Assembly (NCBI RefSeq): GCF_000611675.1
Contig: NZ_JATV01000001.1
Coordinates: 1-64,000 of the forward strand
Direction of reading: 5' to 3'
From: Flavobacterium succinicans LMG 10402
GTDB taxonomy: Bacteria > Bacteroidota > Bacteroidia > Flavobacteriales > Flavobacteriaceae
Length of the DNA stretch: 64,000 bases
Shown: piece after piece, positions 257 through 8,900 of the stretch
How positions within the stretch are numbered: the stretch's first letter is position 1
How the letters are laid out: each line of letters opens with the position of its first letter
Notes under the pieces: model-generated
Databases searched by the model: none
What the model was told of the DNA's origin: nothing
What the model saw: only the letters and a program-made list of their open reading frames with translations
Made by a program: the position numbers and the translations under genes

Positions 257-802
257 CTACTTTTCCTCAAACATTTTCAACAATTGTGTCACCGTATTCC
301 AATTGCGAATAGTAGCGGTTAGGTTCAATTTTTTCTCAATATATTTTTGATCAAATCTCGTTTTCCCAGCACCCACAGCGTATTTAATGTAAATTCTGCT
401 ACCATCAATCTGTGCTTCATCGGGTTTCACTTGACTCATTTTTAAATCATTGATACTGTCACTTTTCAATTCCATCGAAACAAAAGCGACATACAATTTT
501 TTCAAATCAACTTCTTTTTCCTTCAAAAAAGAATTATGGGCAAAACAAGCCTCCAAATCCGATTTCCCAATCACCACCACAGGAACTTCAAGACCAAGCG
601 CTCTAAATAGTTCTTGCTTAATCATGAAACCTACCTTGGCAGGATTTTCCTCTTCGCTATCTACAAAAACATTCCCCGACTGAATATAGGTTTGTACGTT
701 CTTAAAACCAACGGCTTCAAGAGTTGCTTTCAAAACCTCCATTTTAATCATATTATGCCCTGAAACATTGATGCCACGGAGGAGCGCTAAGTGTGTTGTC
801 AT
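257..802 (-). CDS. DUF1697 family protein
   Basis: This 181-residue protein has the pattern of the DUF1697 family: the N-terminal strand ALLRGINVSGHN, a TYIQSGNVFV segment near residue 38, and a C-terminal TIRNWNTVTQL stretch. The family is widespread in bacteria and has no established biochemical role. The length is typical and the gene looks intact. The start ATG at 802 fits the family N-terminus. It is last in a minus-strand run after the yhcH-like gene and a membrane-anchored coiled-coil gene. Its first 12 bases (including one upstream base) recur at the start of that upstream gene, which suggests the upstream gene was inserted here. Confidence 0.85.
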   Translation of the reverse strand: MTTHLALLRGINVSGHNMIKMEVLKATLEAVGFKNVQTYIQSGNVFVDSEEENPAKVGFMIKQELFRALGLEVPVVVIGKSDLEACFAHNSFLKEKEVDLKKLYVAFVSMELKSDSINDLKMSQVKPDEAQIDGSRIYIKYAVGAGKTRFDQKYIEKKLNLTATIRNWNTVTQLLKMFEEK

Positions 803-803
803 T
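792..803. repeat. 12 bp direct repeat, copy at DUF1697 start
   Basis: TGTGTTGTCATT occurs here and again at 1472-1483. Both copies cover the start codon and the first codons (Met-Thr-Thr-His on the minus strand). The pair brackets the coiled-coil gene, as expected if that gene was inserted with duplication of a short target. Confidence 0.6.
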
Positions 804-831
804 ATTTTTAATTAATTATGAAAAAATAAAA

Positions 832-1482
832 TTATTCGCCTAAAAGTTCTCTAAATTTTAATTCTATTTCTTTTTTTAACGGATGTATTATTTCTGGAAT
901 TTTCTTGTAAGTAAAGGCGGACGCTAACCTGTCTTCTGTTTCTAATTTTTCACCCATCGATTTATAAATTTGCCTTTGGTCATAAGCATTAAATATTTCA
1001 CCAGATTCCCTAAAAAAACTAAGCAATAAGATCTCAGTCTCTTCATCGAAGTAAATCGAATTAAAGTTAAAATACTGCAAAAATTCATTATGAGCTTCAC
1101 GATATTCCTTGCTAGCTTTTTGCTCATTTTGATCAAAATCTTCACCCTTTGCAGTAAACTTAAATGGTGAAATATGGTTTCCTAATAAATTTAAATTAGT
1201 GTTCAAGTATTTAAACGATTCTTGTAAAACTTCAAATCGCTTTTCGTGAAGCTTAGTAAACTTGAAATTTTCTTTAGATTTTAGATGATTAAGCTCTGTT
1301 TGAAATTGAGAAAGTTCTTTTGAATGTTCATTTTTGAGTTTTTCAATTTTTTCATCAAAGGAATTTTTAACACTACCTTTAACTCGTTCGTTTAAGTATA
1401 ATGTTAATAATGTTGGTACTAAACCACTAACAAAAACAACTATAAGATTGCTATATTCTCCCAATACCAAATGTGTTGTCAT
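832..1482 (-). CDS. Membrane-anchored coiled-coil protein of unknown function
   Basis: I cannot assign a function to this 216-residue protein. Residues 12-30 form one hydrophobic segment (LIVVFVSGLVPTLLTLYL), probably an N-terminal membrane anchor. Residues 35-75 are rich in Lys, Glu and Leu in a coiled-coil-like pattern. The rest is predicted helical and soluble, and there is no recognisable catalytic motif. The ATG at 1482 opens with MTTHL, the same five residues as the downstream DUF1697 protein. The gene lies 10 bp after the yhcH-like gene and 29 bp before the DUF1697 gene, so cotranscription is likely. Confidence 0.7.
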   Translation of the reverse strand: MTTHLVLGEYSNLIVVFVSGLVPTLLTLYLNERVKGSVKNSFDEKIEKLKNEHSKELSQFQTELNHLKSKENFKFTKLHEKRFEVLQESFKYLNTNLNLLGNHISPFKFTAKGEDFDQNEQKASKEYREAHNEFLQYFNFNSIYFDEETEILLLSFFRESGEIFNAYDQRQIYKSMGEKLETEDRLASAFTYKKIPEIIHPLKKEIELKFRELLGE

Positions 1483-1483
1483 T
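1472..1483. repeat. 12 bp direct repeat, copy at coiled-coil gene start
   Basis: This is the second copy of TGTGTTGTCATT and forms the start of the 216-residue gene. See the copy at 792-803. Confidence 0.6.
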
Positions 1484-2121: not shown

Positions 2122-4230
2122 ATGTCGAACAATCTCCTAGAAACTCCCATTGAATACTTGAAAGGCGTTGGCCCCACTCGCGGGACTTTGCTTCGCAAAG
2201 AATTAGGGATTCACAAATATGGAGATTTGGTCAATTTTTATCCCAATCGATACATTGACCGTACCCGTTATTACAAAATCAATGAATTGCAAGGCACCAC
2301 AGCCGAGGTTCAAATCGTTGGCAAAATCATCCACATCAAAACGGTGGAGTTTGGTAAAAATCAAAAACGTTTGGTCGCAACTTTCGTTGACGAGACAGGA
2401 CAAATGGATTTGAATTGGTTTCAAGGTCACAAATGGATTAAAGAGAGTTTAAAACTCAATGAAATGTGTGTTGTTTTTGGGAAATGTGCCCAATACGGCA
2501 GTCAGTTCAGTATAGCGCATCCTGAGATTGAATTACTCGCTGAGCACCAACAAAGCTTGCGTTCGGCTATGCAACCTGTGTATCCCTCTACCGAAACTTT
2601 GGCCAACAGAGGGATTAGCAACAGAGTCATCAACAAAATGATGCAACAATTGTTTTTGGAAACACAGGCCTTATTTACCGAGACTTTACCTCAATATCTG
2701 CTTGAAGAGTTGAAATTGATTCCAAAGAATGCTGCGCTTTTCAACATTCACTTTCCAAAAAGCAGTGAAGCCTTAGCCAAAGCACAATTTCGTCTGAAGT
2801 TTGAAGAATTATTCTACATTCAGTTGCAATTGATTACCAAAAATTTGATTCGCAAACACAAAATCAAAGGACATCCCTTTTCAAAAGTAGGAGAATTGTT
2901 CAACGATTTTTATCAAAATCACTTGCCTTTTGATTTGACGAATGCCCAAAAAAGAGTAATCAAAGAAATCCGAACCGATATGGGTAGTAATGCCCAAATG
3001 AACCGTTTGTTGCAAGGAGATGTGGGCTCAGGCAAAACAATTGTGGCATTTATGAGTATGCTTTTGGCTTTAGACAATGGTTTTCAGGCTTGCTTGATGG
3101 CACCCACAGAGATTTTGGCCAATCAACATTTTATTGGACTTTCAGAATTTGCCACTACCTTAAATATCAACATCAAAATTCTAACGGGTTCTACCAAAAC
3201 TGCGGCACGTAAAATCATTCACGAAGAACTCGAAAATGGAAGTTTGCAAATCTTAATTGGTACTCACGCGCTATTAGAAGACAAAGTGCAGTTTCAAAAT
3301 TTAGGCTTAGCCGTAATCGATGAGCAACATCGTTTTGGTGTAGAACAAAGGTCAAAATTGTGGAAAAAGAACACCATTCCTCCTCACGTTTTGGTTATGA
3401 CGGCTACTCCTATTCCTAGAACTTTGGCGATGAGTTTGTATGGCGATTTGGATGTTTCGGTTATTGATGAATTGCCTCCTGGTCGAAAACCGATTCAAAC
3501 TGTGCATCGTTTTGACTCCAACCGTTTGAAAGTTTGGAAATTTATTCGAGATGAAATCGCTTTAGGGCGCCAGATTTATATTGTCTATCCCTTAATTCAG
3601 GAATCCGAAAAAATGGATTTTAAAGATTTAATGGACGGTTACGAGAGTATTTCTAGGGATTTTCCCCTACCCGACTATTCCATTTCGATTTTGCACGGAA
3701 AAATGAAACCAGCAGAAAAAGATGCCGAAATGAAACGCTTCGCCGAAGGAAAAACCAATATTATGGTAGCAACTACTGTAATTGAAGTGGGTGTCAATGT
3801 GCCGAATGCCAGCGTAATGATTATTGAGAGTGCCGAACGCTTTGGACTATCTCAACTTCATCAATTACGTGGTCGTGTGGGACGTGGTGCGGACCAAAGT
3901 TATTGCATCTTGATGACTTCCTACAAACTGACCAGCGATAGTAAAATCAGAATGGAAACTATGGTCAATAGCAACGACGGATTTGAAATTGCCGAAGTAG
4001 ACTTGAAATTACGAGGACCAGGAGATATAATGGGAACTCAACAAAGTGGGGTTTTAAACCTTCAAATTGCGGATTTGGTCAAAGACAAAGACATATTGCT
4101 TTTGGCTAGAAATTACGCTTTCAAAGTATTGAATGACGACCCTTCTATGCAAAAACCAGAAAATACTATCCTTAGAATGGTTTTTATGGAACTTACCAAG
4201 AAAAAAAATATTTGGAACTATATTAGTTAA
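2122..4230 (+). CDS. recG: ATP-dependent DNA helicase RecG
   Basis: RecG is a branch-migrating helicase that remodels stalled replication forks and Holliday junctions. This 702-residue protein has the full layout. An N-terminal wedge/OB domain (about 1-230) begins with the characteristic TPIEYLKGVGPTRGTLL. The helicase core has Walker A GDVGSGKT near residue 300, DEQH near 400, TATPIPRT, and the C-terminal QLRGRVGRGADQSYC and LRGPGDIMGTQQSG motifs. The length is usual for the family (about 690-700). The gene is apparently monocistronic and is followed by a large inverted repeat. Confidence 0.97.
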   Translation: MSNNLLETPIEYLKGVGPTRGTLLRKELGIHKYGDLVNFYPNRYIDRTRYYKINELQGTTAEVQIVGKIIHIKTVEFGKNQKRLVATFVDETGQMDLNWFQGHKWIKESLKLNEMCVVFGKCAQYGSQFSIAHPEIELLAEHQQSLRSAMQPVYPSTETLANRGISNRVINKMMQQLFLETQALFTETLPQYLLEELKLIPKNAALFNIHFPKSSEALAKAQFRLKFEELFYIQLQLITKNLIRKHKIKGHPFSKVGELFNDFYQNHLPFDLTNAQKRVIKEIRTDMGSNAQMNRLLQGDVGSGKTIVAFMSMLLALDNGFQACLMAPTEILANQHFIGLSEFATTLNINIKILTGSTKTAARKIIHEELENGSLQILIGTHALLEDKVQFQNLGLAVIDEQHRFGVEQRSKLWKKNTIPPHVLVMTATPIPRTLAMSLYGDLDVSVIDELPPGRKPIQTVHRFDSNRLKVWKFIRDEIALGRQIYIVYPLIQESEKMDFKDLMDGYESISRDFPLPDYSISILHGKMKPAEKDAEMKRFAEGKTNIMVATTVIEVGVNVPNASVMIIESAERFGLSQLHQLRGRVGRGADQSYCILMTSYKLTSDSKIRMETMVNSNDGFEIAEVDLKLRGPGDIMGTQQSGVLNLQIADLVKDKDILLLARNYAFKVLNDDPSMQKPENTILRMVFMELTKKKNIWNYIS

Positions 4231-4233
4231 ATC

Positions 4234-4438
4234 TAACCCGTTGGGTGAAATTATTTTTTACCACATAGAATCATAGAATTTATAGTTTTTAAAAGAAACA
4301 AATAGACGTTTTACTATTCACATAGCTCATCTATTGTGAGAAATAGTGCTATTTCTATTTTTTCTATGTTGATTACTATTAATCTATGACTCTATGTGGT
4401 TAAGTTTTTATTTTATTTGAATTTCACCCAACGGGTTA
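4234..4438. repeat. 205 bp intergenic inverted repeat after recG
   Basis: TAACCCGTTGGGTGAAATT at 4234-4252 is matched by its exact complement at 4420-4438. Further in, ACCACATAGAATCATAGA pairs with TCTATGACTCTATGTGGT (about 4260-4277 and 4383-4400) with one mismatch. The central 100 bp is AT-rich and not coding. The outer motif recurs in degenerate form at 59333-59360, so this belongs to an intergenic repeat family. The rest of the 4231-4746 gap holds only the promoter of the efflux operon. Confidence 0.85.
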
Positions 4439-4542
4439 AATCTATTATTAAATTCTCTTTGTTTTTAAGAATTTATGCTTTAAAACGAAACGATTCCGAG
4501 TTGTTTTATTAATTTGTATGTACAAATGTTAAATTATTTTTT

Positions 4543-4577
4543 CTTGTTACCGCTTTCTTACAAATGCTTTACTTTTG
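4543..4577 (+). promoter_or_regulatory. Putative promoter of the RND efflux operon
   Basis: CTTG at 4543-4546 and TACTTTTG at 4570-4577 are separated by 23 bp. Transcription would start near 4584, leaving an untranslated leader of about 160 nt before the membrane fusion gene. No regulator gene lies next to the operon. Confidence 0.55.
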
Positions 4578-4746
4578 TTTTTGAACTTTTTTTTCAAACC
4601 AATTAAACCATTGGTTATTTCTGATGTCTCATCTACTTATATTAATAAAAAAGCAAGTTTAAAATTCAATTTATCTTACTTTAGAAGGTTAAAACAAACA
4701 GCTTTCCACACCCAAATATTACCAAAAAAACAAATAATAACTACAT

Positions 4747-5805
4747 ATGAAAATAAAAAACCTTGTTTACACGCTTTTAGTTCTTATCATTGGAGGTTTT
4801 ATCGCCTACAGAGTAGTTTCGAATTCTAAAAAAGGAGGCGATTCAAAAGACAAAGGAGGAAAAGACAAACCGATGAACGTAAGTGGAATTGTAATCAAAA
4901 CACAAGTTTTTGAGAACAACTTATCCCTATCAGGTTCAATAGAAGCCAATGAACAAGTCGAAATTCGAAGTGAAGTTTCGGGAATTGTAGAAGCCATTTC
5001 GTTTCAAGAAGGAAGTTTTGTAAACAAAGGTCAAGTGTTATTTAAAGTCAATGACCAAGAATTAAAAGCGCAACTTATTCAAGCGACAACCAAAGAAGGT
5101 TTGGCCGCAGAGAATGCCAGAAGAGCTAAATTGCTTTTGCAAAAAGAAGCCATAAGCCAAGAAGAATATGATGTAGCCAAAGCCGAGCACAGATCAACAC
5201 AAGCCCAAGTGCAATTGATTAGAGCTCAAATTGCAAAAACATCCGTAAGAGCTCCTTTTTCTGGAAAAATAGGATTGCGTTCCATCTCTCCAGGAACCTA
5301 CATCACTCCTACTATTCTAGTTGCCAATTTGGTTAATATCGGGAAATTAAAAATCACGTTTTCTGTACCAGAAAAATATGCTTCACAAATCAAGTTAAAT
5401 ACCAACATTTCTTTTACCGTTTCTGGTACCACTCAAAAATACCACGGTGTTGTTTACGCTATCGAACCTGAAGTGGCCACCGCAACCCGTACCTTACAAG
5501 TTAGAGCTATTGCCGATAACAAAGAAGGAAAGCTTTTCCCAGGGACTTTTGCAAATGTCGAATTACCTTTAGATGTCATTAAAGATGCTATTATTGTTCC
5601 AACAGAAGCGATAGTTCCGATTCAAAATGGTAAAAAAGTATTCATTTCCGAAAAAGGAATGGCAAAAGAAGTAAAAGTAGAAGCTTCAACCAGAACGGAT
5701 GCTTCCATCTTGATTCTTTCAGGATTAAAAGCTGGAGATACTTTACTGACCACAGGCGTAATGGCGCTGAAAGATGAAACACCTGTAAAAGTTAAAATTA
5801 AGTAG
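4747..5805 (+). CDS. RND efflux periplasmic adaptor (membrane fusion protein)
   Basis: This 352-residue adaptor of the AcrA/MexA type would join the inner-membrane pump to the outer-membrane channel. It has an N-terminal hydrophobic anchor (residues 5-22), a lipoyl/barrel-sandwich half (QVEIRSEVSGIVEAISFQEG, near 78), a helical hairpin (about 115-165), the second lipoyl half (TSVRAPFSGKIGLRSISPG, near 170) and a C-terminal beta-barrel and membrane-proximal domain ending in GLKAGDTLLTTGVMALKD. It is first in the operon with the pump and TolC genes. The substrate cannot be read from the sequence. Confidence 0.93.
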   Translation: MKIKNLVYTLLVLIIGGFIAYRVVSNSKKGGDSKDKGGKDKPMNVSGIVIKTQVFENNLSLSGSIEANEQVEIRSEVSGIVEAISFQEGSFVNKGQVLFKVNDQELKAQLIQATTKEGLAAENARRAKLLLQKEAISQEEYDVAKAEHRSTQAQVQLIRAQIAKTSVRAPFSGKIGLRSISPGTYITPTILVANLVNIGKLKITFSVPEKYASQIKLNTNISFTVSGTTQKYHGVVYAIEPEVATATRTLQVRAIADNKEGKLFPGTFANVELPLDVIKDAIIVPTEAIVPIQNGKKVFISEKGMAKEVKVEASTRTDASILILSGLKAGDTLLTTGVMALKDETPVKVKIK

Positions 5806-5815
5806 TGTTTATAGT

Positions 5816-5931
5816 AATTAGTACTTAGTGATTAGTGATTAGTAATAAACAACAGAAGATTATAAACTAAAAACCAAGAACTGAGCACTGAGGACTAACC
5901 ACTAAGGACTTTAAAAGAAAAAATAAAACAA
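5816..5931 (+). repeat. Short degenerate repeats between adaptor and pump genes
   Basis: This spacer contains TTAGTGATTAGTGATTAGTA-type tandem words (about 5820-5845) and CTGAGCACTGAGGACTAACC-type words (about 5880-5905). It is simple-sequence-like intergenic filler inside an operon. No gene or terminator is visible. Confidence 0.5.
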
Positions 5932-8900
5932 ATGAGTTTATCCACCATAAGCATAAAAAGACCCGTTCTAACGATAGTTTTGAATCTAACTATCATTTTG
6001 TTTGGAGTCATTGGCTACAGTTTTTTGGGAGTTCGAGAATTCCCTTCTATCGACCCTGCTCAAGTATCGGTGAGAACGAATTATACTGGAGCGAATTCAG
6101 ATATTATCGAATCTCAAATTACTGAACCTTTAGAAAAAGCCATAAACTCTATAGATGGGATTCGAAATGTAACTTCTTCGAGCATACAAGGAAGTAGTAA
6201 CATTACTATTGAATTTGATTTGAGTAAAAATTTAGAAGAAGCTGCCAATGATGTACGTGATAAAGTATCACAAGCTGTTCGTAGCTTACCACAAGATATA
6301 GATGCTCCTCCTGTAGTTTCTAAAGCTGATGCTAATGGGGAGTCGATTATTTCAATGACGGTGCAAAGTGACACGAGAAACGCATTAGAATTAAGTGATT
6401 TTGCTGAAAATGTGATTGCGCAACGTCTAGAAACCATTCCTGGTGTAAGTGGTGTACAAATTTGGGGACAAAAAAGATACGCAATGCGTTTATGGATTGA
6501 CCCAGTAAAATTAGCAGCCTATGGTTGTACTGTAGCTGAAGTTCGTAGCGCTCTTAATAAACAAAACGTAGAATTACCTTCAGGAAAACTTACAGGAAGC
6601 AACACTGATTTAACAGTAAAAACAGTTGGTAATCTTTCTAAACCTGAAGAATTCAATAATATCATCATTCGTAGCGAGGGCGATAGAATTGTCCGTTTTA
6701 GTGATATTGGAAATGCTGAACTTGGTGCTGAAAATTTAGAGACCAAAATGAGTCAATCAGGGCTTCCATTATTGGGTGTGGCTATTGTTCCGCTGCCAGG
6801 AGCCAATTATTTAGATATCTCCAAAGAGTTTTATAAAGTCTACAACTCTTTACAAAAAGATTTACCAAAAGACATCAAACTAAACATTGCCATTGACAGT
6901 ACGATTTTCGTAAAAAAATCGGTGGTTGAGGTAGCTGAAACCCTTGGTATTTCTATCATTCTGGTAATCTTAATTATTTACTTGTTCTTTAGAGATTGGG
7001 CCATTGCCTTCCGTCCATTGATTGATATTCCCGTTTCCTTGATTGCAACATTCTTCATTATGTGGCTTTTTGGATTTTCGATTAATGTATTGACGTTGTT
7101 GGCGATTGTTTTGGCCACAGGATTAGTAGTTGATGATGGAATTGTAGTAACCGAAAATATTTTCAAAAAGGTAGAAGAAGGAATGTCACCTATTGAAGCA
7201 GCAATAAAAGGGTCGAATGAAATCTTTTTTGCGGTAATTTCAATTTCGATTACCTTGGCTGCAGTATTTCTTCCTGTAATATTTTTGGAAGGTTTTGTTG
7301 GTCGATTGTTTAGGGAATTTGGGGTGGTGATTGGTGCAGCAGTACTAATTTCAGCTTTTGTTTCTTTGACTTTGACTCCAATGCTAAATGCCTATTTAAT
7401 GAAAGGTGGCGTTCAAAAGAAATCCAAATTCTATTTGATGACCGAACCTTATTTTGAAAAATTAAACAGTAACTATGCAGAATCATTAGGGCGTTTTATG
7501 AAAAAGAAATGGTTGAGTTTCCCTATTTTAATTGCTTGTTTTGGATTGATTTACCTTTTCTTTTCGCTTTTGAAAAAAGAAACAGCTCCTTATGATGACA
7601 GAAGTGCCATTGTAATGTCTATGACGACTCCAGAAGGCGCTTCTTATGAATATACTGACCGTTTTATGCAGGAAGTCTCTAAAATTGTAGACGATTCCAT
7701 TCCAGAGAAAAATGTTTCGCTTATCATAACATCACCAGGTTTTGGAGCTTCTACGGTAAACAGCGGACGTGTTCGTATTGCCTTGAAAGCACCAGAAGAA
7801 AGAAAGCGTTCTCAAAAGGAAATTGCAGAACAATTAACCAAAATCACCAAACAATTTCCTGAAGCTAAAACAGCAGTTATTGAGCAACCAACCATTGCAG
7901 TGAACCGTCGTGGAGGATTGCCAATTCAATATATTATTCAGGCGCCAAACTTTAAAAAATTAGAAGAGAAAATTCCATTGTTTATGGAAGAAGCCGCTAA
8001 AGATTCCACTTTTGCGATTACGGATGTGAACCTGAAATTCAACAAACCTGAAGTCACCGTTACCATCGACAGAGAAAAAGCAGAAAGCTTAGGAATTTCG
8101 GTTTTGGATATTGCACAAACCTTGCAACTTTCGTTGAGCGGACAACGTTTTGGTTATTTTATGCAAAACGGAAAACAATACCAAGTCATTGGACAATTCA
8201 ACCAAGAAGACCGAACCAAACCGCTTGATATTGCCTCTATGTTTGTCAAAAACAACAAAGGAGAACTGATTCAGATGGATAATGTGGTGACCATTCAAGA
8301 ACAAAGTAATCCACCGCAATTGTATCACAACAACCGTTATATGTCGGCCACTGTTTCGGCGGGATTAGCACCAGGCAAAAGTTTGGGCGAAGGAATTGAA
8401 GCGATGAATAGAATCAAAGCCAAAGTTTTGGACGATACGTTTACGACTGATTTAGGTGGAGAATCTCGTGATTTTGTGGAAAGTAGTTCGAATACTTCTT
8501 TTGCTTTTGGATTGGCTTTAATCTTGATATTTTTGATTTTGGCAGCACAATTTGAAAGTTTTATTGACCCGTTTATTATCATTTTGACTGTTCCGATGGC
8601 GGTTGCTGGAGCTTTGTTTTCATTGTGGTTGTTCAATCAGACTTGGAATATTTTCAGTCAGATTGGAACTGTAATGTTGATTGGGTTGGTGACCAAAAAC
8701 GGTATTTTGATTGTAGAATTTGCGAATCAATTACGAGAACAAGGTAAACCGAAATTTGAAGCGATTATGGAAGCATCTGAAGCGCGTTTGCGTCCTATTC
8801 TGATGACGAGTTTGGCGATTTCGTTAGGAGCGTTGCCAATTGCTTTATCACTTGGAGCGGCATCGACTAGTAGAATTGGTATGGGAGTCGTGATTGTGGG

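Follow-up and report, generated by a model that had tools for sequence, protein, structure and literature searches.

The window, a stretch of 64,000 nucleotides, forms the left end of contig 1 of Flavobacterium succinicans LMG 10402, whose genome is 3.65 Mb in size. The genes and repeat considered here are listed in Table 1. A coiled-coil gene (CC) stands between a yhcH/DUF386 gene and a DUF1697 gene, and the gene at the opposite border of the interval is presumably recG. Codons 9–11 of DUF1697 read CGTGGCAT and are equivalent to the inferred attachment core of the relatives discussed below.

Table 1. Genes and repeat copies at the recG–DUF1697 locus of the window
Feature	Position	Strand	Remarks
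DUF1697 gene	257–802	minus	181 aa; protein start MTTHL
Right 12-nt repeat copy	792–803	minus	DUF1697 base −1 and first 11 nt; native, attB-type start
Spacer, CC stop to DUF1697 start	804–831	minus	local DNA similarity to the G226 element crosses the spacer to the DUF1697 ATG
CC (coiled-coil gene)	832–1482	minus	216 aa; protein start MTTHL
Left 12-nt repeat copy	1472–1483	minus	probable DUF1697-start relic, now ATG and first codons (MTTHL) of CC
yhcH/DUF386	1493–1939	minus	10 nt upstream of CC; resident next to DUF1697 in relatives
recG (name presumed)	2122–4230	plus	opposite border of the variable interval; points away from the minus-strand genes

For comparison, we sampled 72 loci, which were selected either as top-ranking matches to DUF1697 or as carriers of CC and are therefore not a random sample. 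DUF1697 is present in 68 of the 72, and in 57 of those recG is also present, always divergent. The gap between the two genes ranges from 87 to 5257 bp in these 57 loci, and the frames within it fall into 31 clusters, with 70 of 72 frames pointing towards DUF1697.

The first-pass annotation had reported a 12-nt direct repeat and a common Met-Thr-Thr-His-Leu opening of the CC and DUF1697 proteins, and we confirmed both: TGTGTTGTCATT is found at the two places given in Table 1, and both frames open MTTHL. The 12-mer AATGACAACACA has exactly two copies in the 3.65 Mb genome, one where CC starts and one where DUF1697 starts. At up to one mismatch the window contains four matches to the repeat, two of them exact, a number reached by none of 100 shuffles. 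Among 514 adjacent same-strand gene pairs from the sampled loci, CC/DUF1697 is the sole pair identical at all 12 positions from −1 to +11, the next-best sharing being 10 bases (7 pairs). The sampled loci have 70 forward cargo frames ahead of DUF1697; when the leading bases of each were compared with those of its own DUF1697, only CC of the window (11 nt) and CC of genome G112 (12 nt) had more than 7 in common. Blind Smith–Waterman alignment of the DUF1697 5′ end with the window interval gave a score of 23, below the best of 20 shuffles (26); the same alignment reached 140 versus 27 for shuffles at locus L087 and 54 versus 29 at L090, and of the other loci a few exceeded their shuffles by small margins, so that scores far above shuffles were confined to L087 and L090. 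A scan of the window for the 32-nt relic described below likewise gave 20/32, under the control maximum of 23. The repeat is noteworthy for its position and rarity, not for its length.

The earlier annotation had also predicted that homologues of CC elsewhere lack MTTHL, whose conservation in distant homologues would have spoken against an insertion. None of 40 other CC rows has it (one record is repeated, and four rows are without an assignable start). In an alignment of 11 sequences, the Met of the homologues falls at window codon 7 (TTG, 1462–1464) in 8 of 10, the remaining two having entered the alignment without their Met. Because the first Met of the homologues aligns with codon 7, codons 1–6 (MTTHLV) constitute an N-terminal extension. 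Of 398 genomes of the genus, 23 have a CC homologue, as do 6 of 397 genomes of the family; the window's genome is counted in each figure, and the family figure contains one further genome of the genus. In a tree of 31 CC rows, the window CC forms a clade with its counterparts from G139, G226 and G304 (99/98), all of which lie beside recG at this same locus.

The CC protein itself has few recognizable features. Its description as a membrane protein refers to one N-terminal hydrophobic stretch judged by eye, and a structure model is all helical with a mean pLDDT of 73.6 and a better-defined C-terminal part. Matches to Pfam, NCBIfam and PHROGs were weak and are taken as coiled-coil noise; where a curated cut-off exists, they fell far short of it. 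A sequence-profile search of the PDB gave a best E of 0.35, and a structure search with the model gave 423 PDB matches at E ≤10 and none at 0.001. No match was found in phage records, and plasmid records yielded one weak match (29.5%, E 8e-3, Haloferax). IMG/VR contains CC at four loci, among which L083 repeats a stretch of F. hibernum and L086 repeats L081. In five distinct loci (L063, L068, L081, L084 and L232, which L086, L229 and L234 repeat), CC is adjoined by a membrane-type protein with the motif GGLWQ..FFSISQ..PDG, which is likely to be a partner gene. At locus L092 of F. hibernum (1136–2957), elsewhere than the recG–DUF1697 interval, a distant serine-recombinase-like gene (25%) directly precedes two CC genes. 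PADLOC placed CC in none of its known anti-phage defence families (0 at E 1). Among the genes that keep company with CC at the locus are restriction genes and a DUF3800 frame that matches a model in PADLOC. On that basis one may guess that CC acts in phage exclusion or defence, although we hold this to be tentative and would not expect it on balance.

According to the first-pass annotation, CC had been inserted at the DUF1697 start, and a relative lacking CC should have yhcH and DUF1697 adjacent. Genome G105 is such a relative, with yhcH 13 nt upstream of DUF1697, and when the flanks of the window are joined without CC, 277 of 310 aligned bases are identical to it. Of the 57 intervals with both recG and DUF1697, 12 contain yhcH, and the gap between yhcH and DUF1697 is free of frames of at least 90 aa in 11 of these 12; the exception is the window, with CC. 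The window thus combines the two marks of an insertion with target duplication, a direct repeat at both ends and an empty relative, and the duplication is not classed as long because the repeat is only 12 nt. A close relative, G046, carries hsdR and a DUF1016/PDC-S02 gene at this locus (L094, 11263–15654) and provides an example of a joint between an element-like gene and native DUF1697: the element-like hsdR (78% over 3,040 columns) is followed by a yhcH scrap consisting of its last ~20 nt and then by native DUF1697. A second match to the DUF1697 5′ end (80%) lies on a different contig of this genome (G046:C152:2275–2377).

Longer copies of the DUF1697 start are found in other species. Five of them (G226, G304, G099, Flavobacterium sp. 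HTF and F. limicola) have a ~32-nt relic ahead of CC, and the break point is identical in all five: the relic is joined to a common leader at GGCAT|AATATAA, or variants of it, and the leader is followed by CC's own ATG. We scanned 70 stretches with 67 DUF1697 starts as queries, the 204 control values having a maximum of 23, and found at least 26/32 in six stretches (G226, L147, G099, HTF, G139 and limicola). The relic of G304 was recognized via its position and leader because a gap lowers its score to 22. What lies upstream of the relic and CC differs among relatives: the bare recG–DUF1697 spacer in G226, G304, limicola and G112, a lipoprotein-like frame (c0) in G099, a DUF6892 gene in HTF, another frame in G139 and yhcH in the window. 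CC has entered differing resident contexts, and that it entered at the DUF1697 start follows from G099, where c0 is 82 nt from the relic compared with 84–85 nt between c0 and DUF1697 in L145, L149 and L151.

Two further loci deserve description. L087 (G139, 4200–8130) resembles a fossil record of insertions, with a number of truncated DUF1697 starts interspersed among cargo frames; the cargo comprises a 243-aa frame of unknown type, CC, a DUF3800 frame and a reverse frame. The name AbiGi, considered for one of the G139 frames, was dropped after Pfam and PADLOC searches came back empty. In L147 (G164) a 167-nt relic of the DUF1697 5′ end, with a stop at codon 2, lies 0.95–1.1 kb before DUF1697.

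The relic of the window extends over 15 nt at most, and it matches ACACATTT-type DUF1697 starts, present in seven other species, at 14/15 positions versus 13/15 for the window's own DUF1697. It may therefore stem from a relative, since the ACACATTT-type starts fit better than its own. Across hosts, the relic matches its own DUF1697 best or joint best in G099, G139 and G112, and not in the window, G304 or limicola; in this comparison the limicola start is offset by a few bases, and G226 and HTF have no own start in the set. We had considered that relics might track the DUF1697 of their own host, as independent insertion would have it, and set this aside as evidence in view of the mixed result. 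The empty site in G105 and the homologues without MTTHL support the earlier reading that a duplicate of the DUF1697 start serves as the start of CC. An exact self-copy is doubtful given the 14/15 versus 13/15 match.

A candidate agent for the break in DUF1697 is visible in the relatives. In G226, CC is followed by an 18-kb stretch with type I restriction genes that ends in a large serine recombinase of 630 aa, which abuts DUF1697 in divergent orientation; its HTF counterpart (623 aa) occupies the same place. Homologues of the G226 recombinase were found in 18 of 398 genus genomes at E 1e-20, and DUF1697 adjoins the recombinase in 3 of 19 recombinase loci (G226, G270 and G292). In G317, a recombinase frame cut near a contig end, recognized by eye, also lies beside DUF1697. 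The native start MTTHLALLRG is replaced by an element-type start, mostly MVHLCLLRG, in G226, HTF, G270, G292 and G317, and F. limicola has the related form MTHLCLLRG. A pattern search for the element-type start with two mismatches gave five places in 4 of 398 genus genomes (twice in G226, and in G270, G292 and G317), and the weight of this pattern rests on context, with DUF1697 or CC at all five places, because a reversed control pattern also matches, once in each of 3 of 398 genomes. IMG/VR contained no element-type site. At one end, an attL-like joint consists of the native start cut at ~nt 32 and then the element; at the other, an attR-like joint consists of the element-type start and then DUF1697; CGTGGCAT is common to both. 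In both G226 and HTF the target is split, attL and attR are present and the recombinase gene lies alongside, the two ends of HTF sitting on separate contigs. To judge from these sequences, serine-recombinase elements of Flavobacterium appear to use the DUF1697 5′ end for attachment; it is a recurrent insertion site, apparently of such elements.

CC looks like cargo of these elements, carried just inside the left end. In G226, an element-type match lies ~45 nt after the CC stop, where an element-type start is joined to an element-type left end. CC is flanked by two sites in units of ~0.8 kb, 847 bp in G226 and 791 bp in the solo unit of limicola, and both units are recombinase-free between their sites, as in a cis-mobilizable element (CIME); in limicola the left site is decayed (26/32) and the element-type site diverged (22/33). 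CC accompanies serine recombinases elsewhere as well. In L232 (G324, ~3497–3570 and from 14300 on), a gene that we take to be comM-like is split by a serine-recombinase element carrying CC, in which CC lies ~1 kb in from the left joint while the recombinase occupies the right one. In G202 and G264 a CC homologue and a serine recombinase lie on one contig, 12–14 kb apart. Among 398 genomes, CC and the recombinase co-occur in 5, compared with 1.04 expected (P 0.002, uncorrected for kinship), and with the 17 strong CC genomes only they co-occur in 4 (P 0.005, likewise uncorrected for kinship). One could imagine a cassette system docking at the DUF1697 start, in which recombinase-free one-gene units of ~0.8 kb are moved in trans by the serine recombinases of larger elements and the cassette gene repeatedly captures the start codon of the docking site, in frame in the window and at a 10-nt offset in G112. 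We regard this as doubtful; if true, it would be the equivalent of integron cassettes for serine recombinases, with expression signals provided by the docking site.

The window itself retains little of such an element. Its genome has no match to the G226 recombinase at E 0.001 and no element-type start by the two-mismatch pattern. The 32-nt joint is absent from the window, where the relic stops after 11–15 nt, before CGTGGCAT, and the insert has neither the recombinase gene nor attL/attR joints at the core; nor does it retain the attL and attR of a CIME. Local similarity between the window and the G226 element extends from the G226 CC ATG, which corresponds to codon 7 in the window, as far as the DUF1697 ATG, and no element remnant was found in the window beyond CC and the spacer. 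No convincing recombinase remnant or element-type site was found in the intervals of the window, G139, G304, G099, G112, G046 and L098. G112 has the same flush form as the window with a CC only 48% identical; there the ATG of the relic is 10 nt upstream of the ATG that belongs to CC, and the two are in different frames. Downstream of CC, the window, G112, G304 and G099 have a native DUF1697 start and G139 has a native fragment. The window appears to be a decayed derivative, in which CC is without its own leader and start and the relic would now open the frame.

We consider it probable that CC owes its first codons to a relic of the DUF1697 start, left by the attachment site of a serine-recombinase element, and that the CC frame now begins there. 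Integration at DUF1697 codons 9–11 would split the gene so that its native first ~32 nt stay at the element's left end, while at the right end DUF1697 acquires a replacement start from the element; a relic would precede CC because, on this proposal, the DUF1697 5′ end is the attachment site. The window would have passed through such an integrated state. A loss of ~150–160 nt would have removed the CC leader and start codon and brought the relic ATG, which follows yhcH, into the reading frame of CC. Borrowing of the start probably came about by this later loss of the leader because CC elsewhere has its own leader and ATG, and transcription of CC probably continues from yhcH. As for the native start of DUF1697, it may have been kept or, as is likely, restored via recombination with an unoccupied allele. 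Several observations weigh against the proposal: the window lacks the recombinase, the element-type start, the 32-nt joint and any element remnant beyond CC and the spacer; the flush form of 11–12 nt occurs in two species, the window and G112, for which decay needs coincidence or selection; native DUF1697 starts lie behind CC, which integration alone does not yield; and the site pattern depends on its context, given the matches of the reversed control.

Other explanations were weighed. CC and the spacer fragment alone might have been inserted directly, with a target duplication of ~12 nt and immediate use of the existing start, as in the first-pass annotation, by a recombinase of unknown type or by illegitimate recombination. 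This would account for the fact that the window and G112, with CC proteins only 48% identical, both have ~12-nt repeats lying flush with the insert at either end, and for the G226 similarity, which starts at the CC ATG and stops at the DUF1697 ATG. However, five relatives carry the 32-nt relic and leader at the same place, so the longer state does exist, and our analysis turned up no enzyme with such a site; we judge direct insertion unlikely.

Less likely still is that a yhcH allele and a CC allele of the recG–DUF1697 interval were joined with the serine recombinase uninvolved in this lineage, one junction arising through homologous recombination and the opposite one through short homology or an illegitimate event. 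The high variability of the interval fits such stacking of alleles, as do the several truncated DUF1697 starts between cargo genes in G139 and the junction of element-like hsdR, yhcH scrap and native DUF1697 in G046, but the common break point at ~nt 32 and the recombinase with its replacement starts would be left unexplained. That unrelated genes open with the same 12 nt by chance is scarcely credible: although blind alignment does not lift the repeat above shuffles, its only two copies in 3.65 Mb are both at this locus, the sharing is found in 1 of 514 adjacent pairs, and homologues are without the segment.

The relic of an attachment site, with the decay described above, thus remains our preferred account of the CC start. 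The locus would then be a readable case of a mobile-element scar becoming a gene start, in which the relic of the target gives a cargo gene its initiation codon and first residues. It suggests that the DUF1697 5′ end is an integration place of serine-recombinase elements in Flavobacterium, it marks the recG–DUF1697 interval as a place to seek phage-related cargo, and it supplies defined attB, attL and attR sequences that are open to testing.

The G324 target, comM-like by our presumed naming, resembles the magnesium chelatase genes targeted by other elements. Such genes are a frequent serine-recombinase target in the portion of PMC10083194 that bears on this point. As far as the relevant sections of PMC5704250 and PMC10083194 describe site-specific integrative elements with large serine recombinases, the elements of the relatives are alike in having the recombinase gene at one end beside the target, attL/attR-like joints and a specific target gene. 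They differ in that the target is the DUF1697 5′ end, which gains a replacement start, and in that the window retains the cargo gene alone. DUF1697 is absent from the main text of PMC10083194, and our searches for DUF1697 in an open-access library found nothing on its start as an integration site. CIMEs and tandem accretion, as outlined in part of PMC5704250, are matched by the recombinase-free units with two sites in G226 and limicola and by the tandem of such a unit with a complete element in G226; unlike the CIMEs of that account, the units here are of ~0.8 kb with one gene, and the window has lost the sites themselves, its relic acting as a start codon. Minimal mobile elements, characterized in sections of PMC3082526 as gene cassettes between two conserved genes, are similar by cassette arrangement, since varied whole-gene cassettes lie between recG and DUF1697 in the 57 loci, whereas here a recombinase is implicated at one border. 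Finally, to the extent set out in passages of PMC1643837 and PMC3154945 on insertion with long target duplication, and of PMC5361080 on arrays arising via homology-facilitated illegitimate recombination, the locus shares a partial target copy flanking the insertion and truncated leftovers of earlier alleles; the difference is that the copied piece is here the start of the target, turned into the start of the inserted gene.
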